From assembly GCA_022821265.1 (NCBI GenBank), contig JAJEDW010000345.1, positions 1 through 33,969 of the forward strand: a DNA stretch of 33,969 nucleotides, written 5' to 3'. The notes under the pieces were generated by a model. The model was not told where the DNA came from. It searched no databases and saw nothing but the letters and a program-made list of their open reading frames with translations. Positions within the stretch are counted from its first letter, which is position 1. The number at the start of each line of letters is the position of its first letter. The translations under genes were made by a program, and so were the position numbers. Shown piece after piece: positions 22,644-33,969 of this stretch. Source of the stretch: Acidobacteriota bacterium (GTDB taxonomy: Bacteria; Acidobacteriota; Terriglobia; 20CM-2-55-15).

Positions 22644-23144
22644 TCACTCGCTCTTGTACTCGATCAGCTCGAACGTGTTGCCCGAGTTGTCCCGCACGAA
22701 GAAGAAGATCGCGCCCGGGTTGTCGACCGGGCCCATGACGATCTCGGCGCCCTTCGATCGAAGGATCTCCAGCGCCGCCATTGCGTCTTCCACCTGGTAG
22801 GCGAAGTGCGCGGTGCCGTGGACGCGGAGGTCGGCCGACGGGTCGCGCCGGTACTCGGGCAGCGGCGCGGCGTCCGGGATCTCGAACAGCTCGATGAAGG
22901 CGCCGCCCCGGCCCAGCAGCGCGATCGCGCTTTGGCCTTCTGCCTCGCGCTCGCGCATGCGCAGGACCTCGAAGCCGAGCATCTCCCGGTACCACGCGAC
23001 GGACGCTTCCAGGTCGGGGACGGATATCCCGATGTGGTGCGGCGTGATCTCGAACCCGGGGTCGCCGGCCTGCGGGAACGCCGCTGTCGGCGCGGATGCG
23101 AGAACGGCGAGCGCGGCTCCGATCGCGATGGTGCGCCCGTGCAT
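22644..23144 (-). CDS. Exported VOC (glyoxalase-like) protein
   Basis: A 166-residue protein with a signal peptide (MHGRTIAIGAALAVLASAPTAA) followed by one vicinal-oxygen-chelate module pair: HHIGISVPDLEASVAWYREMLGFEVL, then FIELFEIPDA, and AHFAYQVEDAMAALEILRSKG with GAIFFFVRDNSGNTFELIEY. Metal ligands are likely the His of HHIGI, Glu of FIELFE, His of TAHFAYQ and Glu of FELIEY. The start ATG 23144 follows GGAGGG; open frame further upstream runs antisense through the cytochrome gene and is a shadow. Export is unusual for this family. Possible roles are isomerase, dioxygenase or lyase. Confidence 0.85.
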   Translation of the reverse strand: MHGRTIAIGAALAVLASAPTAAFPQAGDPGFEITPHHIGISVPDLEASVAWYREMLGFEVLRMREREAEGQSAIALLGRGGAFIELFEIPDAAPLPEYRRDPSADLRVHGTAHFAYQVEDAMAALEILRSKGAEIVMGPVDNPGAIFFFVRDNSGNTFELIEYKSE

Positions 23145-23277
23145 TGGGAACCCTCCTCGTCGATGTGCAAGTTCAACCAGAACAGAGTCTTGCATTAACC
23201 TTGCGCGCGCGCCGGTCTCTGAATAGACTCGGTAGGAGTTTTCGGTGGGACGGGTGCGTCCCGGCGGGTATGGCTCG

Positions 23278-25725
23278 ATGAAAAATCGCTCGGTGACGAT
23301 CGGATTCGCGGGAGCCGGCATGCTTCTGTGCGTGGCCGTTGCCGGCCATGGTCCGGCCGCGGCCCTCGGCGCCGTGCAGACCGGCGCGGCGGCAATCGAC
23401 GCGCATCGAGAGCTGATCGACCAGTACTGCATGGGCTGCCACAGCGATGCGGCGCGGTCCGGCGGGCTGGCGCTGTCGGAGTTGAACCTGGACGCGGTGG
23501 CGGAGAATCCCGAGGTTGCCGAGACGGTCATTCGCAAGCTGCGCGGCGGTCTGATGCCGCCGGCCGGCGCGCGGCGTCCCGACAACGAGTCCACGGCGGC
23601 GCTCGTCGCATGGCTGGAGCGCGAGATCGACACGGCCGTCGGGGATCCGGAGCCCGGCCGCGTGGCCCTGCGGCGACTCAACCGCCGGGAGTACGGCTAC
23701 GCCATACGCGACCTGCTCGGGCTGAACGTCGACGCGGAGGCATGGCTGCCCGTCGACAATGTCGAGGGTCACTTCGACAACAATGCGGACGCGCTGCAGG
23801 TGTCGCCCGCCTTCATCGACCAGTACATCGATGCCGCGCGCGCGATCGCGCTCGAGGCCGTCGGCAACCTCGAGGCGCCTCCCGTCACCACAACGTACGG
23901 CGACGTCGCCAACATGGTGATCTCGCTGCCGCCGCGGGGCGCTCCGGGCACCGGGCGCCAGCAGCATCACGTCGAAGGGATGCCTTTCGGCACTCGCGGT
24001 GGATTCATCGTCGAGCACAACTTCCCGGCCGACGGCGAGTACGAGCTCACGATCGGCGACATGGCGCTTGCGCGCGAAGTCCCGCGGATGGAATTCGAGA
24101 ATACGGTGATCGTGTTGCTGGACGGAGCGGAGATCTACCGCACGAACATCGGCGGCGAGCCCGACCACAAGGCGATCGACCAGTTGCTGGATCCGGCGGT
24201 CGAGGAGGTCAACGGGCGGCTGCGGAAGATCCGGTTCCAGGCGGCGGCGGGGCAGCATCGGCTGGCCGTCACGTTCCAGCATCGGAGCTTCGCCGAGAGC
24301 GACGAGCGGACGCGCACGGCCGCGCTCGAAGGCGGCCAGGAGCGCATCCAGGCCGTGCATGCCCTCCAGATCCGGGGGCCGCTTTCGGTCACGGGCATCG
24401 GCGACTCGGCGAGCCGACAGAAGATATTCATCTGCCGTCCCGCATCGGCCGTCGAGGAGGAACCCTGCGCGCGCCGGATCCTCGCGAACCTCGCCGAGCG
24501 CGCTTTCCGCCGCCCCGTGACCGGCGAGGATCTCGATCCGCTGATGGCGTTCTACCGGGCTGGACATGAGCGCGACGGTTTCGAGCGCGGCGTGCGCGAT
24601 GCGTTGAGCGCCATCCTGGCGAGCCCGCACTTCCTGTACCGTCCGGAATCCGGAGCCGAGGTCGGCGCCGTCGCGCTGGACGACCTGGAACTCGCCTCGC
24701 GCCTGTCCTTCTTCCTGTGGAGCAGCCTGCCCGACGCCGAGCTCTTGGACCTTGCGCGCCGGGGGCGCCTCAACGATCCCGACGCGTTGGCCCTTCAGGT
24801 GCGCCGGATGCTGGTGGACGAGCGGGCCCTGTCGCTGGTGGACGACTTCGCGTTCCAGTGGCTCGACCTTGCCAAGCTGGACGAGATCGTTCCCGACCGG
24901 GGCCGATTCCCGCACGCCAGCGGCCTGCTCGATACGCGCGATCTGCTGAGGCAGGAGTTGCGGCTGTTCGTCGACAGCGTCTTCGGTGAGGGCCGCAGCC
25001 TCGTCGAGTTGATGACGGCGGACTACACCTTCCTGAACGAGCGCCTGGCGATGCACTACGGCATCGAGACCGTCAAGGGCGCCCGTTTCCGCCGGGTCAT
25101 GCTGGAGGAGGACGCGCGCCGCGGCCTGTTGGGGAAGGGCGCCGTGTTGACGTTGACGGCCTACCCCAACCGCACGTCGCCGGTCCTTCGGGGTGCATGG
25201 ATCCTGGAACGGCTGCTGGGCGCGCCGCCGCCGGAGCCGCCTGCGAACGTCCCGGAACTCGGTGAGAACGGGCGCGGCCAGCCGGCGCGAACGCTGCGCG
25301 AGAGACTCGAGCAGCACAGCGCGAACCCGGCGTGTTTCGCGTGTCACGGCATCATGGACCCGTTGGGGATGGCGTTGGAGAATTTCAACGCCGTGGGCCA
25401 GTTTCGGACGCACGACCCCGAGACCCGGACTCCGATCGACACCGCGGGCGTTCTGCCCGACGGCGCGCCGATCGGCGGGCCCGCCGAACTCCGGCAAGCG
25501 CTCATTGCCCGGCCGGATCGTTTCGTTCAGGCGTTCACCGAAAACCTGTTGACGTTTGCGTTGGGGCGCAGCCTGGACTATCGCGACATGCCCACGGTGC
25601 GCGCGGTCGTCCGGCGCGCGGAGGCGGACGATTACCGCTTCGAGTCCATCGTGACGGCCGTCGTTTCGAGCGACGCGTTCCGGAGGCGCGAGGGATGGAG
25701 TCCCAACGCGGTTTCCGCCGAGTAG
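23278..25725 (+). CDS. Secreted DUF1592-type cytochrome c protein (DUF1587/1595/1592/1588/1585)
   Basis: An 815-residue exported protein. The signal peptide is MKNRSVTIGFAGAGMLLCVA. A heme c site CMGCH (51-55) opens the planctomycete-type cytochrome part, followed by RLNRREYGYAIRDLLGL (DUF1587), a beta-rich region (about 220-350), FRRPVTGEDLDPLMAFY (DUF1595), ALSAILASPHFLYRPE (DUF1592), PNRTSPVLRGAWILERLLG (DUF1588) with a second CxxCH (CFACH, 686-690), and LLTFALGRSLDYRDMPTV (DUF1585). The family is frequent in Planctomycetes and Acidobacteria and probably moves electrons outside the cytoplasm; its substrate is unknown. ATG 23278 is preferred over GTG 23245. The next gene follows after 24 bases. 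Confidence 0.93.
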   Translation: MKNRSVTIGFAGAGMLLCVAVAGHGPAAALGAVQTGAAAIDAHRELIDQYCMGCHSDAARSGGLALSELNLDAVAENPEVAETVIRKLRGGLMPPAGARRPDNESTAALVAWLEREIDTAVGDPEPGRVALRRLNRREYGYAIRDLLGLNVDAEAWLPVDNVEGHFDNNADALQVSPAFIDQYIDAARAIALEAVGNLEAPPVTTTYGDVANMVISLPPRGAPGTGRQQHHVEGMPFGTRGGFIVEHNFPADGEYELTIGDMALAREVPRMEFENTVIVLLDGAEIYRTNIGGEPDHKAIDQLLDPAVEEVNGRLRKIRFQAAAGQHRLAVTFQHRSFAESDERTRTAALEGGQERIQAVHALQIRGPLSVTGIGDSASRQKIFICRPASAVEEEPCARRILANLAERAFRRPVTGEDLDPLMAFYRAGHERDGFERGVRDALSAILASPHFLYRPESGAEVGAVALDDLELASRLSFFLWSSLPDAELLDLARRGRLNDPDALALQVRRMLVDERALSLVDDFAFQWLDLAKLDEIVPDRGRFPHASGLLDTRDLLRQELRLFVDSVFGEGRSLVELMTADYTFLNERLAMHYGIETVKGARFRRVMLEEDARRGLLGKGAVLTLTAYPNRTSPVLRGAWILERLLGAPPPEPPANVPELGENGRGQPARTLRERLEQHSANPACFACHGIMDPLGMALENFNAVGQFRTHDPETRTPIDTAGVLPDGAPIGGPAELRQALIARPDRFVQAFTENLLTFALGRSLDYRDMPTVRAVVRRAEADDYRFESIVTAVVSSDAFRRREGWSPNAVSAE

Positions 25726-25749
25726 ATTGACGACTGGAGGAATCTCGTC

Positions 25750-27033
25750 ATGTACCTGACCCGAAAGCATCTGTCACGGCGCACGGTCCTGAAGGGAGCC
25801 GGCGTGTCGATCGCGCTGCCGTTGCTGGACGCCATGATTCCCGCGCGCACCGCGCTGGCGCAGACGGCGGCCGCGCCCAGCCCGCGCGTGGGTTTCGTCT
25901 ACTTCCCGCACGGCGCCCTTCAGGACGAGTGGGAGCCCGCGGCCGCCGGCCGGGACTTCGAATTTCCGTTCATCCTGGAACCGCTGGAGCCGATGCGCGA
26001 GCACGTAACCGTGGTCAGCGGCCTGCGCAACAAGGGCGGGGAAAGCGCCAGCCCGCATGGCATCATCCAGGAGACGTGGCTGAACTGCGTCAGCCCGCGC
26101 CGGCGTAGCAACGAGACCGGCGTCGGGGTGACCGCGGACCAGATCGCGGCGCGACACCTGGGAGCGGACACGCCGCTGCCGTCGCTGGAGTTGTGCGGCG
26201 AGCCGGGCGGCATGATCTCGTTCCGGACGCCGGAGCAGCCTTTGCCCATGGAAGGCAATCCGCGCAGGGTGTTCTACACGATGTTCGGGCAGGGTGACAC
26301 GCAGCAGGAGCGCGAGGCGATTCTCAACACGACGAACAGCCTGCTCGACTACGTGAGGGAGTCCACCGCCAGCCTGAACCGACGGCTCGACGCCGGCGAC
26401 CGGGCGAAGGTGAGCGACTACCTCGATTCGGTCCGCGAGATCGAGGTCCGCGTCCAGCGTCTGGCCGACAGCGCCGAATCGATGGGCGAGTTGCCGGACG
26501 CCCCGATCGGGCCGCCGGAGGACTTCGGCGAGCTGCTCGACCTTCAGTTCGAGTTGATCGCGTTGGCCTGGCAGACGAACCGGACGAACGTGGCCTCGAT
26601 CAAGATGGTCGAGGAAGCCAGCATGCGGACCTACCCGAACCTGGGCGTCCACGAAGCGTTCCACCCCACCTCCCACTGGGGCGGATACCCGGAACGCGTG
26701 GCCAACCTGAGGCTCATCCAGAACTACCACACCGCGGTGTTCGCCAAGTTCGCCCAGCGGCTCAAGGACACGCCCGACGGCGACGGCTCGATCCTGGACC
26801 ACGCGATCGTCCTGTTCGGCAGCAACATGGCCAACAGCGACGCCCACAACAACGACCCGCTCCCGCAGGTCCTCGTGGGACGCGGCGGCGGCATACGCGG
26901 CGGCCAGCACCTGCGGTATCCGCAGGATTCGCCGCACGCCAACATCCTGGTGACGATGCTGGAGCGCGTGGGCGTGCCCGCGGAGGAACTGGAGAACTTC
27001 GCCGACAGCACCGGGCCTTTGAGCGAGGCATGA
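25750..27033 (+). CDS. DUF1552 protein, Tat-exported
   Basis: A 427-residue protein with a twin-arginine signal (LSRRTVLKGAGVSIALPLLDA), so it is probably folded, perhaps with a cofactor, before export. The family body is recognisable by RVGFVYFPHGA, WEPAAAGRDFEFPFILEPLEP, VVSGLRNKGG, HWGGYPERVANLRLIQNYH and VLFGSNMANSDAHNNDPLPQVL, which resemble the alkaline-phosphatase-like (DUF1501/DUF1552) fold. Start ATG 25750 follows GGAGG. It is almost always found next to a DUF1592 gene, as here. Its stop overlaps the ankyrin gene start (ATGA). No function is established; a metal-dependent hydrolase or partner protein is a guess. Confidence 0.93.
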   Translation: MYLTRKHLSRRTVLKGAGVSIALPLLDAMIPARTALAQTAAAPSPRVGFVYFPHGALQDEWEPAAAGRDFEFPFILEPLEPMREHVTVVSGLRNKGGESASPHGIIQETWLNCVSPRRRSNETGVGVTADQIAARHLGADTPLPSLELCGEPGGMISFRTPEQPLPMEGNPRRVFYTMFGQGDTQQEREAILNTTNSLLDYVRESTASLNRRLDAGDRAKVSDYLDSVREIEVRVQRLADSAESMGELPDAPIGPPEDFGELLDLQFELIALAWQTNRTNVASIKMVEEASMRTYPNLGVHEAFHPTSHWGGYPERVANLRLIQNYHTAVFAKFAQRLKDTPDGDGSILDHAIVLFGSNMANSDAHNNDPLPQVLVGRGGGIRGGQHLRYPQDSPHANILVTMLERVGVPAEELENFADSTGPLSEA

Positions 27034-28550
27034 TGACGAGACGCACCGCCATCGCCGCCGTCTGCGCCGCCGCCGCCGCCGCGGCCTTCGGCGCCCCCGT
27101 GGCGCATGCACAAGCTCCGGAGATCGACCGCCGGTACGCCGACGGCAGCACGCCCTTGCAGTGGGCGGTCTTCGAGGGAAACGCCGCCGAGGTCGCGCGC
27201 TTGCTGGACGCCGGCGCCGATGCGTCCCTCGCCAACAACTACGGCGCCTCGCCGATGGGGCTGGCCGCCGAGGTGGCCGACACCGCGATACTCCGCCTGC
27301 TGCTGGACGCCGGCGCCGACCCCGACTCGCCCAATCCCGAGGGACAGACCGCCTTGATGGCCGTGGCCCGAACCGGCAACGTGGAGGCGGCGCGGTTGTT
27401 GATCGACCGCGGCGCGACGGTGGATGCGCGGGAGGGCTGGGGCGGACAGACCGCGCTGATGTGGGCGTCCGCGCGGCGGCATCCGGAGATGATGGTGTTC
27501 CTGATCGCCCACGGCGCCGACGTCGACGCGCGCTCGATCCATCGCGACTATCAGCGCCACGTGACGGCCGAAGGGCGTCCGAAGAACATGGACAGCGGCG
27601 GCTTCACGCCGCTGCTGTACGCCGCGCGCGAGAACTGCCGGGCCTGCGTCGACGTGCTGCTCGAGAGCGGCGCGGACATCGACCTGCCCGACCCCGACGG
27701 CGTGTCGCCGCTGCACGTCGCGATCATGAACGCGAACTGGGACCTCGCGAAGCGGTTGATCGAGGCCGGCGCCGACGTCAACCAGTGGGACATGTACGGC
27801 GAATCGCCGCTGTTCACCGCCGTCGGCCTCTATACGCGGACCGACGGGGGACGCGCGTCGATCGACCCGTTGAACGCGACCGACGGCCTGACGATCGTCA
27901 GGATGCTGCTCGACGGCGGCGCCAACCCGAACATGCAGCTCTTCTTCCGTCCGTCCAACGTGCGGGGCTCGACCAACACGCGGGGCTCGACGCCCCTGAT
28001 CCGCGCGGCCACCAACGGCGATCTCGACATGGTCCAACTGCTTCTGGAGAACGGCGCGGACGCCACGGTCTACATGGCCGACCGCCAGACCCCGATTCAC
28101 GCCGTGCTGGCGGGCCGGTCCTCGGAGCCGCAGGCGCTGGAGCTGATCCGGATCCTTCACGACGCCGGCGCCGACGTCAACGTCGTCGCGCTGGTGAACC
28201 ACCGGGAGGAGGTCCGGGGCGGCACGGCGCTGCACTACGCCGTACGGAAACGCTACCCGGATGTCATCCGCGAGTTGGCCGCCTACGGCATCGACATGGA
28301 CGCCCGCGACCAGGACGGCCTGACGGCGCTCGACTACACGCAGTCCCGCGGCTTCATGCCGTTCATGGCCCTGCAGACGCCTCACTACGCGGAAGAGGAG
28401 GCGCTCCTGCGCGAGTTGGGCGCGACCGCGGAGATGGCCGAGGATCCCGTGTGGCCGGTGTTGGGCCCGCCCCAGGGCGTCTGGGCGGACATCTGGCCCG
28501 TGGGCGAGGCGCGCGTCCACGATCCGGTCTACACGCACTCCGACGAGTGA
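27030..28550 (+). CDS. Exported ankyrin-repeat protein
   Basis: A 506-residue protein with a signal peptide (TRRTAIAAVCAAAAAAAFGA) and about nine ankyrin repeats from about residue 35 to 455. Clear units include DGSTPLQWAVFEGNAAEVAR, GQTALMAVARTGNVEAARLL, GVSPLHVAIMNANWDLAKRL and GGTALHYAVRKRYPDVIREL. Two repeats carry insertions (about 171-190 and 268-315); the second contains a small internal duplication (RGSTNT-RGST, 27962-27991). The C-terminal 50 residues (PVWPVLGPPQGVWADIWP) are not ankyrin. Translationally coupled to DUF1552 by ATGA. It is probably a protein-binding partner in the periplasm or cell envelope. Confidence 0.93.
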   Translation: MMTRRTAIAAVCAAAAAAAFGAPVAHAQAPEIDRRYADGSTPLQWAVFEGNAAEVARLLDAGADASLANNYGASPMGLAAEVADTAILRLLLDAGADPDSPNPEGQTALMAVARTGNVEAARLLIDRGATVDAREGWGGQTALMWASARRHPEMMVFLIAHGADVDARSIHRDYQRHVTAEGRPKNMDSGGFTPLLYAARENCRACVDVLLESGADIDLPDPDGVSPLHVAIMNANWDLAKRLIEAGADVNQWDMYGESPLFTAVGLYTRTDGGRASIDPLNATDGLTIVRMLLDGGANPNMQLFFRPSNVRGSTNTRGSTPLIRAATNGDLDMVQLLLENGADATVYMADRQTPIHAVLAGRSSEPQALELIRILHDAGADVNVVALVNHREEVRGGTALHYAVRKRYPDVIRELAAYGIDMDARDQDGLTALDYTQSRGFMPFMALQTPHYAEEEALLRELGATAEMAEDPVWPVLGPPQGVWADIWPVGEARVHDPVYTHSDE

Positions 28551-28578
28551 GATTCCGTTCGAGGGCGGAACCGCGCGG

Positions 28579-29463
28579 CTATTCCAACCCGCAGGCGCGG
28601 GCCTGTTCCCGGGCCAGCACGGCCTGGTCGCGGTCGCCGTCGCCGTGCGCGATGGCGCCGAGCAGGCGTTCGCGGTAGACGTCCAGGCTCGGCAGCGGCG
28701 CCCGCGCCAGGTCGGCGGCGGCCAGTATCAGGTTGGCGTCCTTGATCCCGACCCACACCGGCGAGCCCACGTTGTCGAACGTGCCCTCGACCATCATCTT
28801 GCCGTAACCCGAGTACGCCGGCGCGCCCGAGAACAGGCCGTCCGTCATGGTGTCGTACAGAACCTGCGGATCCACGCCGTATTTCCGCACCAGGGAGAAC
28901 GCTTCGCCTTGAGCCACGATCGCCGCCCCCAGCGCGAGGTTGTTGGCCAGCTTGATCGCGGTGGCCGTCTCCGGCTTCGACCCCGCCTCGAAGACCCGGC
29001 GGCCCAACCACTCGAGCACCGGGCGCGCGCGCTCGACCGCGTCGGGCGGGCCTCCGGCGACGATCCCCAGCTTGCCCGCGGCGGCGAGGTCGGGCCGGCC
29101 CAGCACCGGCGCGGCGACGAGCGCCTGTCCGGCCTTGGCGTGGGCGTCCTCCAGCGTCCGTATGGCCCCGACGCCGTACGTTCCCATGGCCAGGTGGACG
29201 CTTCCCGCGGGAAGCGAATCGCACAGTCCGCCGTCGCCGCAGGCGACCTCGACGACCGACCGATCCTCGACCAGCATGGTCGCCACCGCCTCGCGGCCGT
29301 CGCACAGCTCCGCCACCGACGACGCCACGCGCGCTCCGGCGGCGCCGAGCTCCGCGGCCGCTTCGGGCACGATGTCGTACACCGTCAGGTCGTGGCCGCC
29401 TTCCAGGACACGCCGCGCCATTCCCCTGCCCATACGGCCCAGACCGATGAAACCGACCTTCAT
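28579..29463 (-). CDS. NAD(P)-dependent beta-hydroxyacid dehydrogenase (3-HIBDH/GLYR1-like)
   Basis: A 294-residue cytoplasmic reductase of the 6-phosphogluconate/3-hydroxyisobutyrate dehydrogenase superfamily. The Rossmann loop is GFIGLGRMGRGMA (4-16); the substrate segment is APVLGRPDLAAAGKL (118-132) and the catalytic Lys is K171 in AIKLANN with N174/N175 following. 'LGRPDLAAAGKL' in place of the usual 'SGGxxGAxxGxL' marks the GLYR1-like/succinic semialdehyde reductase side of the family, so the substrate could be a semialdehyde. The start ATG 29463 follows GAAGGAG. It is convergent with the ankyrin gene (28 bases apart), with no clear terminator. Confidence 0.92.
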   Translation of the reverse strand: MKVGFIGLGRMGRGMARRVLEGGHDLTVYDIVPEAAAELGAAGARVASSVAELCDGREAVATMLVEDRSVVEVACGDGGLCDSLPAGSVHLAMGTYGVGAIRTLEDAHAKAGQALVAAPVLGRPDLAAAGKLGIVAGGPPDAVERARPVLEWLGRRVFEAGSKPETATAIKLANNLALGAAIVAQGEAFSLVRKYGVDPQVLYDTMTDGLFSGAPAYSGYGKMMVEGTFDNVGSPVWVGIKDANLILAAADLARAPLPSLDVYRERLLGAIAHGDGDRDQAVLAREQARACGLE

Positions 29464-29620
29464 GCGCGCACTCCTTCCGCAATTGGGGCTGAAACGAGCG
29501 AACACTATAGCACCGGCGCGAGCACCCGGAGTCGAGCCCAGGGGCGTTCCGGCAATCACGCCGGCGTCAAGTCCGGCGCGGTGTGATACGTTTCACTTTC
29601 GAGCGGTAGGCCGCTTCACG

Positions 29621-30562
29621 ATGCGATCGACAGGCACTCCAACGACTGCGGACCGGCTTTCGAGGCGCGGCTTTCTGGGCGCGGGCGCGGCCGCGCTGGG
29701 CGCGCCCCTGGCGTCCGCCTTCGCCTCCGGTTCGCGCCAGGCCGCTCGGCTGACATCCACGGACCTCGGGGGCGTCACGCTCATCCAGGGCGCCGGCTGC
29801 AACGTGGTCGCGATGGCGGGCCCGGACGGCGCGCTGATGATCGACGGGGGGCTTGCCGAGAACGCGGACGCCTTGCTGGACGCGGTCCGGGACGCCACGG
29901 GAAACAGCCGCGTCCACACGCTGATCAACACGCACTGGCATCCCGAGCACACCGGCGCCAATGAGGCCGTCGGCCGCGACGGCGGCGTGATCATCGCCCA
30001 CGAGACCACGCGGATGTACGTCAGCAACGCGGTCTATTCGGTGACCTTCGAGGGCCGCCTGGCGCCGCTGCCGCAAGTGGCCCGGCCGAACCGGACGACG
30101 CGCGCGGCGGACTCGCTGGAGTTCGCCGGCCAGCGCGTCGACTACGAACACCTGCCCTCGGCGCACACGGACGGGGACCTCTACGTGCGTTTCCCCTCGC
30201 TGAACGTTCTGGCCGCCGGCGGCGTGGTTTCGGGCGAGGCGTGGCCCATCCTGGACTACCGGAACGGCGCTTGGTACGGCGGCCGCGTGCGCGCCCTCGA
30301 ACGGCTGGCCGAGATGGTCGACGTCGACACGCGCGTGGCGCCCGCCCACGGCCGCCCGATCACCGGCGCCGACATCGTGCGCCACCGCGATATCTACCAG
30401 GAACTCTTCCTGACGATGATCGACTACATGAACATGGGCCTGGGCCCCGAAGACGTCGTGGAACGCAACCCGCTGTCGGAGTACGAGGCCGAGTTCGGCG
30501 ACCCGTCGACGTTTCTCGACGGCGCATACCGCAGCATGCTGATCGCCTACGTCCCGGACTGA
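29621..30562 (+). CDS. Tat-exported metallo-beta-lactamase-fold protein with altered metal ligands
   Basis: A 313-residue protein with a twin-arginine signal (LSRRGFLGAGAAALGAPLAS). The MBL fold is visible: GALMIDGGL (70-78), the metal motif NTHWHPEHTGAN, H182 in PSAHTDGDLYV and H243 in VAPAHGRP. The motif is H105-x-H107-x-E109-H110, with Glu where the family has Asp. At the place where most relatives have the bridging metal Asp ('GD'), it has G200-G201 (LAAGGVVSGEAWPILDY). It may therefore bind one metal or none. The start ATG 29621 has no strong ribosome site. The next gene follows after 11 bases. Confidence 0.87.
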   Translation: MRSTGTPTTADRLSRRGFLGAGAAALGAPLASAFASGSRQAARLTSTDLGGVTLIQGAGCNVVAMAGPDGALMIDGGLAENADALLDAVRDATGNSRVHTLINTHWHPEHTGANEAVGRDGGVIIAHETTRMYVSNAVYSVTFEGRLAPLPQVARPNRTTRAADSLEFAGQRVDYEHLPSAHTDGDLYVRFPSLNVLAAGGVVSGEAWPILDYRNGAWYGGRVRALERLAEMVDVDTRVAPAHGRPITGADIVRHRDIYQELFLTMIDYMNMGLGPEDVVERNPLSEYEAEFGDPSTFLDGAYRSMLIAYVPD

Positions 30563-30573
30563 GGCGGGCGTCC

Positions 30574-31074
30574 ATGCAGAAGGACAGCGTGGTGACCATC
30601 GTTTCCGCCCTCAACCGGCGTGGCGTGCGTTACCTGATCGTCGGCGGGCTCGCGGCCGTCGCCCACGGAAGCGTTCGCTTCACGGCTGACGTGGACGTCA
30701 TGCTGGCATGGGACGAGCCAAACGTGCGGCGGGCCATCGCGGCGTTGACCGCGCTGGGTTACCGTCCTCGCGCACCCGTGAAGTTCGAGGCCTTGCTGGA
30801 TCGATCGGAGCGCGAGCGCTGGGCGCGCGAAAGGAACATGACAGTGTTCTCGCTTTATTCCGACGCGCACCGCCTGACCGAGATCGATTTCCTGCTGGAC
30901 GCTCCGATCGAGTTCGAGCACGCGTGGGCGCGGTCGGTTCGAAAGCCGGTTGCGCCCGGTGTGGAGGCCCCGTTCTGCGGTGTCGACGACTTGATCGAAT
31001 TGAAATCGGGAACCGGCCGCGCCCGGGACCGCGACGATGTCGAGCGGCTGAAGCGGTTGACCGAGGATTCGTGA
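30574..31074 (+). CDS. AbiEii/DUF6036-like nucleotidyltransferase
   Basis: A 166-residue nucleotidyltransferase-fold protein. The pattern YLIVGGLAAVAHGSVRFTADVDVML has the GG of the active loop (24-25) and the metal pair D39 and D41. Further acidic positions are TEIDFLLD. The C-terminal part FCGVDDLIELKSGTGRARDRDDVERL is the family ending. Such enzymes are the NTase halves of AbiE-like TA or abortive-infection loci, and others are stand-alone. The next gene starts inside its stop codon (TGATG), so the pair is coupled. The start ATG 30574 lies just after the MBL gene, perhaps in the same transcript. Confidence 0.85.
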   Translation: MQKDSVVTIVSALNRRGVRYLIVGGLAAVAHGSVRFTADVDVMLAWDEPNVRRAIAALTALGYRPRAPVKFEALLDRSERERWARERNMTVFSLYSDAHRLTEIDFLLDAPIEFEHAWARSVRKPVAPGVEAPFCGVDDLIELKSGTGRARDRDDVERLKRLTEDS

Positions 31075-31259
31075 TGGTCGAGGTCGGAGTCCGGGAGTGG
31101 GAGTCGGGGTGGGAAGGCCATGAACGGCTTCAGATGCGGCGTTTTGCCGCGCTTCCGATGGCCGAGAAACTGGAGTGGCTCGAAGAAACGCAACGCATGG
31201 TGTTGACGCTCCACGCCGAGAACGGGAATCCAGCCCACTCGGACGTCAAGCTAGAATAG
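31074..31259 (+). CDS. Small partner protein of the AbiEii-like nucleotidyltransferase
   Basis: A 61-residue protein starting at ATG 31074, which overlaps the stop of the nucleotidyltransferase gene by one base (TGATG). It reads EVGVREWESGWEGHERLQMR, then MAEKLEWLEETQRMVLTLHA, a short helical protein with no signal. From memory, small proteins with the 'WEGHERLQLRR...PLAEKLxWLEE' pattern occur next to such NTases in other genomes. That the two work together is inferred from coupling; function unknown. Confidence 0.72.
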   Translation: MVEVGVREWESGWEGHERLQMRRFAALPMAEKLEWLEETQRMVLTLHAENGNPAHSDVKLE

Positions 31260-31287
31260 TCACGATCGCCGCGAAGATGAGTCGAGG

Positions 31288-31443
31288 ATGAAGGACAGGA
31301 ACAACGTCACGGCGCAAAGTAAGGTTCGCGTCGACCCGGTTGCCATTGACGATTCCTTCCGGGATCTGCCGGCGCCTTCCGTGCCTTTCGAGGTATTGAT
31401 GAAAGCCGTCGAGCAGGAACGCAGTGAGGATCCGGACGTTTAG
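31288..31443 (+). CDS. Possible 51-residue small protein
   Basis: A short frame from ATG 31288 to TAG 31441, preceded by GAGG close to the ATG. It reads MKDRNNVTAQSKVRVDPVAI, then a proline-containing middle, ending AVEQERSEDPDV, an acidic C-terminus. It lies on the same strand between the small partner gene and the rhomboid gene, with a seven-base gap to the latter. No similarity is recognised; short and of uncertain reality. Confidence 0.42.
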   Translation: MKDRNNVTAQSKVRVDPVAIDDSFRDLPAPSVPFEVLMKAVEQERSEDPDV

Positions 31444-31449
31444 GCTCGC

Positions 31450-32223
31450 ATGTTCCCTATACGAGACGACAACCCGCGGGTCCTGACGCCGTACGCGACG
31501 TACGCGATCGCCATGTTGAACGTCGCGGTGTGGGTCCTGATTCAGGGGATGGGGACCGAGCCGGCGCTGTCGGCGTCGGTATGCCGGCTCGGCCTGATTC
31601 CGGGCGACCTGCTCGGCACGGTCCCGGCGGGCACGAGCTTCCGGATCGGCTTCGACACCTCGTGCGTCCTGGGCGGAAGCTCAAGCTGGTATACCACGGT
31701 CACGTCGATGTTCATGCACGGCGGATGGTTCCACCTCATCGGCAACATGTGGTTCCTCTGGATCTTCGGCGACAACGTGGAGAGCTCGATGGGGCACCTC
31801 CGCTTCGTGGTCTTCTACCTGCTGTCGGGTTTTGCCGCCGCCGCGCTGCAAGTGGCGACGAATCCGGAATCGGCGATTCCGATGGTAGGGGCGTCAGGCG
31901 CCATTGGCGGCGTCATGGGCGCCTACATCATCCTGTCTCCGCGGGTCCACGTGCACATGCTCATCCCGCTCGGCTTCTTCATCACGACGATCGCCGTTCC
32001 CGCGTTCCTGATGCTGGGCTACTGGCTGCTGGTCCAGCTCGTCAGCGGCGTCGGAACGATCGGCATGGAGGGCGGCGGCGTGGCCTTCTGGGCGCACGTC
32101 GGGGGGTTCGTCGCGGGCGCCGTCATGGTCTTCGGGTTCCGCAAGAGGCGCCTGCTCGAACGCCACCCCTACCACGGCTGGCGCCGCCGCTCGCCCACCC
32201 GAAGCTGGCACAGCGTGCGGTAG
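31450..32223 (+). CDS. Rhomboid-family intramembrane serine protease
   Basis: A 257-residue polytopic inner-membrane protease that cuts other membrane proteins within the bilayer. The active-site Ser is S149 in MVGASGAIGG and the His is H216 in AFWAHVGGF. The conserved HGGWFHLIGNMWFLWIFG stretch (90-107) supplies the His and Asn of the oxyanion region. About six hydrophobic segments are visible (15-33, 84-108, 117-136, 147-165, 172-200, 212-229). Residues 40-80 form an insertion with two Cys (C45, C72), which could be a disulfide-bonded periplasmic loop. The start ATG 31450 lacks a strong ribosome site. Substrates unknown. Confidence 0.93.
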   Translation: MFPIRDDNPRVLTPYATYAIAMLNVAVWVLIQGMGTEPALSASVCRLGLIPGDLLGTVPAGTSFRIGFDTSCVLGGSSSWYTTVTSMFMHGGWFHLIGNMWFLWIFGDNVESSMGHLRFVVFYLLSGFAAAALQVATNPESAIPMVGASGAIGGVMGAYIILSPRVHVHMLIPLGFFITTIAVPAFLMLGYWLLVQLVSGVGTIGMEGGGVAFWAHVGGFVAGAVMVFGFRKRRLLERHPYHGWRRRSPTRSWHSVR

Positions 32224-32258
32224 GCTCGAAGGCCGGACGTCGTCACGACGATATGACC

Positions 32259-32678
32259 TCAGGGCGTTTCCCATGGATCGACGACGCTGACGTCCAGGCA
32301 TTCGAAATCCTTGACGTTGCGGGTCGCCACGGCCAGATCGTGGGTCTTCGCCGTGCCCGCGATCAGCGCGTCGCCCAAATCCAGCGGACGTCCGAAACCG
32401 TGCGCCTGTGACCGAAAACGGGCGGCCCACTCGGCCCCGACCCTCTCCAGCGGAAGAATGCGATCGTCGAATTCGCCGATAAGACCCCGCAGAGCCTCTT
32501 GAAGCTTGCGCCGCCGCCTTCCGTGCGGCATTCGACGCAATCCGCATTCGAGTTCATGAACGACGATCGACGACAGCCAGAGATCGTCGTGTTCGGTGAG
32601 GAATGCGATGACGCGCGCGTGGGGGTCGTGCCGCACGACCTCGGAGATCACGTTCGTGTCCAGGAGATAGCCCCTCAC
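32259..32678 (-). CDS. PIN-domain toxin (FitB-like VapC)
   Basis: A 139-residue PIN RNase with all four acidic residues: D7 in LLDTNVISEV, E42 in VVHELECGL, D103 in LDLGDALIAGTA and D124 in ATRNVKDFE. The LLDTNVISE start and 'ATRNVKDFE' end place it with FitB/VapC toxins. Length and motifs are complete. The start ATG overlaps the antitoxin stop by four bases (ATGA). It converges with the rhomboid gene (35 bases between stops). Confidence 0.92.
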   Translation of the reverse strand: MRGYLLDTNVISEVVRHDPHARVIAFLTEHDDLWLSSIVVHELECGLRRMPHGRRRRKLQEALRGLIGEFDDRILPLERVGAEWAARFRSQAHGFGRPLDLGDALIAGTAKTHDLAVATRNVKDFECLDVSVVDPWETP

Positions 32679-32953
32679 GCGTCCGTTTCGTCAATGAACG
32701 GGATCTTTCGATTCGAATGGCGCTCCGGGAGTTCGAGATCGATGCCTCGCGGCATGTTCTCGACCAGCCATGAGCCCAGCCGTTGACGCGGTGTCCTGGC
32801 GTCCCACACGGCGGCGGGCACCACGACGAACGAACGGCGGGCGCCGATCCGTTGCGGCCCCTCTTCTTCGGCAAGCCTCAGGATTTCGGACAGTCGCGAC
32901 TTGGCCTCGGCCACGGTCCAAGTGCGGTGGGGTTCGGAAGATTTGGCAGACAC
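32675..32953 (-). CDS. Phd-type antitoxin of the FitB-like locus
   Basis: A 92-residue antitoxin: WTVAEAKSRLSEILRLAEEE is the Phd helix, and QRIGARRSFVVVPAAVW are the strands that follow. The C-terminal toxin-binding part includes LGSWLVENMPRG and IDLELPERHSNRK. The start is GTG 32953, placed right after GGAGGG. An upstream ATG (32986) lies inside the operator and promoter and would lack a leader, so it is not preferred. The gene is regulated from the palindrome at 32970-32998, which it should bind itself. Confidence 0.86.
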   Translation of the reverse strand: MSAKSSEPHRTWTVAEAKSRLSEILRLAEEEGPQRIGARRSFVVVPAAVWDARTPRQRLGSWLVENMPRGIDLELPERHSNRKIPFIDETDA

Positions 32954-32969
32954 GCGCCCTCCAGTGGAC

Positions 32970-32998
32970 CCATTATAGTCCAACATGGACTATAATGG
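32970..32998. promoter_or_regulatory. Perfect palindromic operator with two divergent -10 boxes
   Basis: Perfect 13-base arms (CCATTATAGTCCA at 32970-32982 and its complement at 32986-32998) around a 3-base centre. Each arm contains TATAAT: on the plus strand at 32991-32996, pointing at hicB (33019), and on the minus strand at 32977-32972, pointing at the Phd gene (32953). One bound repressor could shut both promoters at once. The -35 hexamers are not obvious. Confidence 0.8.
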
Positions 32999-33018
32999 CT
33001 GCGGAACCGCGTTGGCTA

Positions 33019-33258
33019 ATGAAACGGAGCGCGCAATACGTCAAGATCGTCGAATGGTCGGAGGAAGACCAGTGCTTCGTGGGTAGCTGCCCGGGTCTGC
33101 TTCTCGGCGGGTGTCACGGTGACGACGAGCAGGCGGTTTTCGCCGAGCTGTGCCAGATCGTGGACGAAACACTCGACCTGTTCGCCAAGGAAGGCAAACC
33201 CTTGCCGGCGCCCACGGCCGGCAAGGACTATGCCAACAAGATGCTGAAGGTTGGGTAA
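33019..33258 (+). CDS. Orphan HicB-family antitoxin-like protein
   Basis: A 79-residue HicB-like protein: YVKIVEWSEEDQCFVGSCPG, then the turn LLLGGCHGDDEQAVFAELCQ and the helix IVDETLDLFAKEGKPLP. The catalytically dead RNase-H-like HicB fold is complete, but no DNA-binding tail is visible and no hicA lies on either side. ATG 33019 is preferred because an ATG at 32995 sits in the -10 box of the operator. It is divergent from the Phd/FitB-like locus and apparently shares its operator. It could be a captured antitoxin or an anti-toxin decoy. Confidence 0.8.
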   Translation: MKRSAQYVKIVEWSEEDQCFVGSCPGLLLGGCHGDDEQAVFAELCQIVDETLDLFAKEGKPLPAPTAGKDYANKMLKVG

Positions 33259-33276
33259 CCGGCGAGCACTCGCCGG
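33259..33276 (+). terminator. Hairpin after the HicB-like gene
   Basis: CCGGCGAG at 33259-33266 and CTCGCCGG at 33269-33276 form a GC-rich hairpin starting right after the stop codon. There is no T-tract, so it is only a possible terminator or 3'-end stabiliser. Confidence 0.4.
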
Positions 33277-33420
33277 CCTGCAGGCGGCCGGAACGCACAC
33301 CCGACCCGCTGCCGCAACGCGTTGAGAACCGCGGGGCCGGCGTTCCCGCCCCATAGGGCGTCGGTCGGCGCGTCCGTTCCAGCAACGCGCCTTCCGCGCA
33401 CCCGCCAGTCCGTTGCCGCG

Positions 33421-33969
33421 CTAGTCGACCGGCGCGATCTTCATCACGACGCGGTTCGTCGAGTCCGAAGCGTACAGTGCGCCGTCGCTGTCGATCGTCA
33501 GGCCGTGGGGCCGCCCCAATCCGCCGATCGTCTCGACCACCTCGCCGTCCTTGATGACGGAGACCGCGCCGGCGTTGACGTCGCTGACGTAGACCGTGTC
33601 GTCGTCGGCGATGACCATGGTTCCACGCGAGGGAACATCCCACGTCTCGACGAACGCGCCGTCCTTGTCGAACACGGACACGCGCTGGTTGTCGCTGTCG
33701 CTCACGATGATGTTGCCCGCGGAATCGATAGCCAGACCGTGCGGCAGGTCCAGTTGCCCGGGCTCGGAGCCCTCGACACCGCCGATGATGCGGACCAGCT
33801 CGCCTTCGGGGTTGAAGTGCACGACACGCGAGTTGGCGTAGCCGTCCGTCACGTAGATGTCGCCGTCCGGCGTCACCGCCACGTGGTTGGGCCGATTGAA
33901 CATGTCCGTCGAGTCGTTGTCGCCCGCTTCGCCCCTCTGCCCGAGCGTCATCAGCAGCTCGCCGTCGGC
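33421..33969 (-). CDS. NHL-repeat protein (C-terminal part)
   Basis: The last 183 codons of a protein whose start lies beyond the right edge. It has successive NHL-type blades with the motif 'FNRPNHVAVTPDGDIYVTDG', 'LDLPHGLAIDSAGNIIVSDS', then 'GRPHGLTIDSDGALYASDST', forming part of a six-bladed propeller. This resembles the peptidyl-alpha-hydroxyglycine alpha-amidating lyase-like secreted NHL proteins common in Acidobacteria. Catalytic assignment is not possible from this part. It ends 162 bases from the HicB-like gene, converging on it. Confidence 0.88.
   Translation of the reverse strand, partial: ADGELLMTLGQRGEAGDNDSTDMFNRPNHVAVTPDGDIYVTDGYANSRVVHFNPEGELVRIIGGVEGSEPGQLDLPHGLAIDSAGNIIVSDSDNQRVSVFDKDGAFVETWDVPSRGTMVIADDDTVYVSDVNAGAVSVIKDGEVVETIGGLGRPHGLTIDSDGALYASDSTNRVVMKIAPVD

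Follow-up and report, generated by a model that had tools for sequence, protein, structure and literature searches.

The window (the whole 33,969-nt stretch of DNA that was analysed) carries, close to its right-hand end, a palindrome between two outward-reading genes: phd, the antitoxin gene of a leftward toxin–antitoxin (TA) operon, and a rightward hicB. The features of this locus are as follows.

32259..32678, minus strand: gene for a PIN-domain toxin (FitB/VapC type), 139 aa (PF01850, E 1.7e-17)
32675..32953, minus strand: phd, Phd/YefM-like antitoxin, 92 aa, GTG start at 32953 (profile matches, relatives)
32957..32962, minus strand: GGAGGG, Shine-Dalgarno of phd (from sequence)
32970..32998, no strand: palindrome CCATTATAGTCCA-ACA-TGGACTATAATGG, probable phd-PIN operator; found in relatives as well, at -37 to -44 from phd
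32972..32977, minus strand: TATAAT, probable phd-PIN -10 of this lineage, without a good -35 (from sequence)
32991..32996, plus strand: TATAAT, candidate -10 for hicB, without a good -35 (sequence and inference)
33019..33258, plus strand: hicB, orphan Class 1 HicB antitoxin, 79 aa, without a recognisable DNA-binding domain (homology, operon context)

A repeat search recovered the palindrome as two 13-nt arms (32970-32982 and 32986-32998) that are 100% complementary and separated by a 3-nt loop, and the sequence reads TATAAT outward in each arm, at 32991-32996 on the plus strand and at 32977-32972 on the minus strand. Both agree with a previous description of the locus from its letters (the sequence-only reading), which had reported a perfect palindrome with an outward -10 box in each 13-base arm. 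Because the site is a palindrome, one box implies the other. The window contains one other perfect inverted repeat with arms of at least 13 nt and a loop of at most 10 nt, at 2686-2724; its 15-nt arms are GC-rich and enclose a 9-nt loop, possibly marking a terminator. First-order Markov copies of the window, random sequences that keep its dinucleotide make-up, contain 0.1 such repeats on average (10 in 100 copies), so the length of the palindrome by itself is modest, suggestive evidence. As judged by sequence comparison, what is decisive against chance is that the site holds the same position in distant relatives.

A genome search at up to 3 mismatches found no second copy of the palindrome, and a Phd regulon was rejected on this ground. 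Of three matches to the palindrome in viral contigs, just one (L201) keeps a 3-nt spacer; it sits within a longer AT-rich inverted repeat next to a methyltransferase-like gene and was judged unrelated. A Phd search of the viral contigs returned no relatives. Across 100 relatives, the site pattern and its reversed control matched about equally often once the congener and the phd loci are set aside.

The antitoxin gene phd is first in its operon and overlaps the PIN toxin gene by 4 nt; an alternative upstream ATG lies at 32986, inside the palindrome. Its product scores above the TIGR01552 cut-off (22.9 bits, cut-off 20.8), matches Pfam PF02604 at E 4.9e-5, under the Pfam cut-off, and is 53-64% identical to its relatives outside the genus. 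The predicted Phd model has low confidence (mean pLDDT 65) and gave an empty fold search. The best solved relative of the PIN toxin is FitB (2h1c, E 2e-23). With the TIGR01552 and PF01850 matches, the leftward Phd/PIN operon of the sequence-only reading is confirmed.

No Pfam or NCBIfam model matches the 79-aa rightward protein, and we assigned it to the HicB family by homology and operon context. In the class, its closest relatives outside the genus are 53-69% identical, and several are encoded directly downstream of hicA. A scan of 84,980 species genomes (GTDB species) identified at least 453 stretches encoding relatives, and we kept the best 80. Among these best 80 of at least 453, hicA lies immediately upstream in 65 loci, usually overlapping the hicB start, and is missing from its usual place in 15, while several others retain just its 3' end. 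The window protein has the characters of Class 1, which is described as lacking a DNA-binding domain (PMC10865869): it falls within 60-90 aa, has no Pfam match, and its close homologs sit downstream of hicA in those same 65 of 80 loci. Longer relatives contain a C-terminal ribbon-helix-helix (RHH) domain (PF05534, residues 68-106 of a 112-aa relative) to which the window HicB has no match; because the latter is 79 aa long and ends about where the RHH of longer relatives begins, it has no recognisable means of binding DNA. For the partial RNase H fold of Class 1 HicB, its predicted model, likewise of low confidence (mean pLDDT 65) and without a PDB match in the fold search, gave no confirmation.

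The window hicB is intact, keeping all 21 invariant residues of a 42-sequence family alignment, and starts 21 nt from the palindrome, with an in-frame alternative ATG at 32995. The operator occupies the place where hicA would be expected, so the locus is not a complete hicAB module. By eye we saw no hicA remnant before hicB, and the HicA matches found in this genome, which is 86% complete, and in the congener included no close Class 1 hicA. With hicA missing, homology and the operon context of relatives uphold the earlier identification of the gene as an orphan HicB. Solitary genes of this kind can be kept by selection, because the orphan pair L128/L133, which shares its context, differs by 7 synonymous and 3 non-synonymous changes (dN/dS 0.12, Fisher p 0.0017); this result covers that pair, not the window hicB.

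The palindrome overlaps the -10 at the antitoxin gene promoter, which was assigned by sequence only. No good -35 lies at 16-18 nt from either outward TATAAT, and a promoter scan reported just one weak leftward match, located at another place within the site (TAGCCA-18-TATAGT, 9/12). Transcription of hicB is predicted to start near 33003, and the gene has no clear Shine-Dalgarno; given this and the lack of a good -35, it may be silent or expressed from elsewhere.

We found PIN relatives, 52-64% identical, in four other families. In 15 relatives outside the genus phd was readable, and every one of them has a site of the form TRGTCYA-N3-TGGACYA about 37-44 nt before phd; one contig without a recognisable phd (G444) was left out of the 15. 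In 13 relatives the site stands at -37 to -44 and differs at 1-6 of 18 positions, and the fraction of shuffles (n=500) scoring as good was 0.000 in eleven relatives and 0.026 and 0.038 in two. The remaining two have 5 mismatches, after correction of the phd start. No HicB was present beside the site within the 1.2-1.5 kb stretch around each of these relatives. Their neighbours on the hicB side vary, including an MFS-like transporter, a membrane protein, a HEPN-like gene and a peptidase-like gene (names assigned by eye, with no family search). At hicA-hicB loci, no such site exceeded shuffled expectation, bar two related matches with 5 mismatches near hicA in Nitrosomonas (L137, L143), which were set aside because they are not palindromic. 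Thus, since relatives keep the site without HicB, their neighbours differ and hicA-hicB loci lack it, the site belongs to phd-PIN: a TA operator travels with its own operon while the neighbours change.

In an alignment, the phd promoter of most relatives consists of a TTGAC or TCGAC -35, a spacing of 17-18 nt and a TAT(A/G)YT -10 in the palindrome centre, followed by TGGAC. In the window and its congener (G001), the -35 of the relatives is gone, the palindrome centre reads CATGTT or CATATT, and TATAAT is found in both arms. The likeness to relatives ends at the hicB-side edge of the operator.

We found no HicB sharing the site outside one genus, in which one congener (G001) stands beside the window species, among 399 class genomes, 396 phylum genomes and the 80 best HicB loci across GTDB species. 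The sequence-only reading had proposed to look for co-occurrence of the two loci in other genomes and had named a lack of conservation as evidence against it; confined as it is to a single genus, the pairing largely lacks such conservation. Moreover, window 22644-33969 and congener L087 4618-15937 form a block of 11.3 kb that is 98.8% identical, whereas identity to the congener is about 86-90% in the best-matching segments of the rest of the window. The part just left of the block falls to 81-84%, and the block edge at 22644 is sharp. This pattern points to a likely recent exchange of the block between species. Because the congener copy of the pairing lies inside this near-identical block, it is no independent conservation, and we rejected it as support. 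At 30607-31074 the window also encodes a small protein that weakly matches DUF6036/DUF2204 nucleotidyltransferases and may be one member of a further TA-like pair.

These observations make it likely, in our judgement, that the palindrome is the phd-PIN operator and that HicB is not one of its regulators. It would be an autoregulatory operator of the leftward type II TA operon, at which, by analogy with homologous systems, Phd would bind as a dimer, more tightly with the PIN toxin, to the half-sites TRGTCYA / TRGACYA; bound Phd would then cover the -10 box and repress the operon. In this genus a Class 1 hicB, having apparently lost its hicA, directly abuts the operator. On the simplest reading, hicB would have been joined to the operator by a rearrangement in which hicA and the old -35 were lost, and the promoter would then have been regained in the arms, leaving the operator perfectly symmetric with a TATAAT on each side. 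Because the rebuilt phd promoter holds one TATAAT per arm, the site may now carry the hicB promoter too, which would place hicB under Phd/PIN repression as a bystander. Lacking a recognisable DNA-binding domain, HicB would take no part in repression; if made, it would probably serve to neutralise HicA-type toxins. The geometry allows such one-way control of hicB by Phd/PIN, and we regard it as plausible from the sequence. Whether the site controls hicB at all is about an even bet.

The sequence-only reading went further, proposing that the Phd/PIN complex and HicB both bind the palindrome and so coordinate two TA modules. The layout of the site, from which hicB starts 21 nt away, is what such a two-way operator would lead one to expect. 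Against it, HicB has neither a recognisable HTH nor an RHH, the missing hicA means that there is no second module, phd relatives retain the site without HicB, and hicB relatives do not carry it. The locus thus holds one intact module, not two regulators on a shared site, and a role for both antitoxin families as regulators is unsupported, because HicB is an orphan without a DNA-binding domain; we consider this reading very improbable. Even less credible is that the palindrome acts as a terminator or recombination site instead of an operator. Its perfect stem-loop potential would suit such a function, but it lies between two outward-reading gene starts without a T-run, keeps a fixed distance to phd across families, and is 10 kb away from the detected end of the exchanged block.

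A much stronger competitor, to which we give somewhat less than an even chance, is that the site regulates phd-PIN only and that hicB is a decaying or silent leftover, its TATAAT a mirror image of the phd -10. The second TATAAT is forced by the palindrome, hicB lacks a -35 and a clear Shine-Dalgarno, and the pairing is confined to one genus and to a recently shared block. However, the window hicB is intact with every invariant family residue in place, the orphan pair L128/L133 elsewhere is under purifying selection, and the relatives' phd promoter has been replaced by a symmetric one exactly here. The fullest version of our reading, in which a TA operator captured an orphan antitoxin of another family, the phd promoter being rebuilt after the loss of hicA as a perfectly symmetric bidirectional promoter-operator so that Phd/PIN levels set HicB, is tentative and on the whole doubtful. 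If true, it would tie PIN toxin release to the expression of an anti-HicA antitoxin.

FitB, the nearest solved relative of the window PIN toxin, comes from Neisseria gonorrhoeae, where the FitAB complex recognises an inverted repeat within its own promoter. The antitoxin FitA is of the ribbon-helix-helix type (PMC4803016), in contrast to the Phd-like window antitoxin. Antitoxin-bound palindromes overlapping the -10 are standard for the Kis/Kid and YefM operators (PMC4803016); as in the window, the palindrome of Kis/Kid and YefM/YoeB lies over the -10 of its own operon, and there it is antitoxin-bound (PMC4803016). YefM belongs to the same antitoxin superfamily as Phd, but the window half-site is unlike the YefM TGTACA, the palindrome is single, and a divergent gene abuts it.

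The window HicB resembles that of Class 1 hicAB modules, which the account in PMC10865869 gives as 60-90 aa without a DNA-binding domain; there hicB is normally close to or overlaps an upstream hicA (PMC10865869), whereas in the window hicA is absent. The same source records, within one defence island, a vapBC locus along with hicB genes that stand alone, and its treatment of that island describes no shared operator. The sequence-only reading took a cross-regulated arrangement with a shared operator as not known to be described. Antitoxins acting on another module's promoter are known, and a cross-regulated, divergent pair of unlike and adjacent modules, mazEF and txpA-ratA, is already reported for Enterococcus faecalis (reviewed in PMC10305079). 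That pair comprises two modules with a sequence in each promoter, as compared with one module, an orphan antitoxin and one site in the window. Searches of the open-access literature gave no example of a TA operator that an orphan antitoxin from a different family shares. What is unusual here is the perfect symmetry of a site that faces an orphan antitoxin gene lacking a DNA-binding domain: an ordinary operator in an unusual, lineage-specific setting. It represents one case in which an orphan antitoxin gene abuts a TA operator that has become perfectly symmetric, each arm holding a -10. How Class 1 hicB is regulated is posed as an open question in PMC10865869; if hicB is indeed driven from the operator of another module, this would be one answer for orphan Class 1 hicB genes.

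The wider scan gave several observations on this family. The 79-aa Class 1 HicB proteins (L113-L192) occur in many phyla, mostly beside hicA, and no Pfam or NCBIfam model matches the members tested, which marks an annotation gap. Class 1 hicB is often preceded by a degraded hicA, the antitoxin outliving the toxin; in L122, L141, L156, L161, L170 and L179, from several phyla, hicA is truncated or has an internal deletion, and the hicB that follows it is intact. That hicB has repeatedly survived the loss of hicA, and that one orphan pair shows purifying selection, hints at a useful function of solitary antitoxins. Two hicAB loci with an RHH-type HicB (L025 and L027) carry a different near-palindrome, TGGTACTAATGTAGTATCATA, upstream of hicA, a candidate operator of their HicB.
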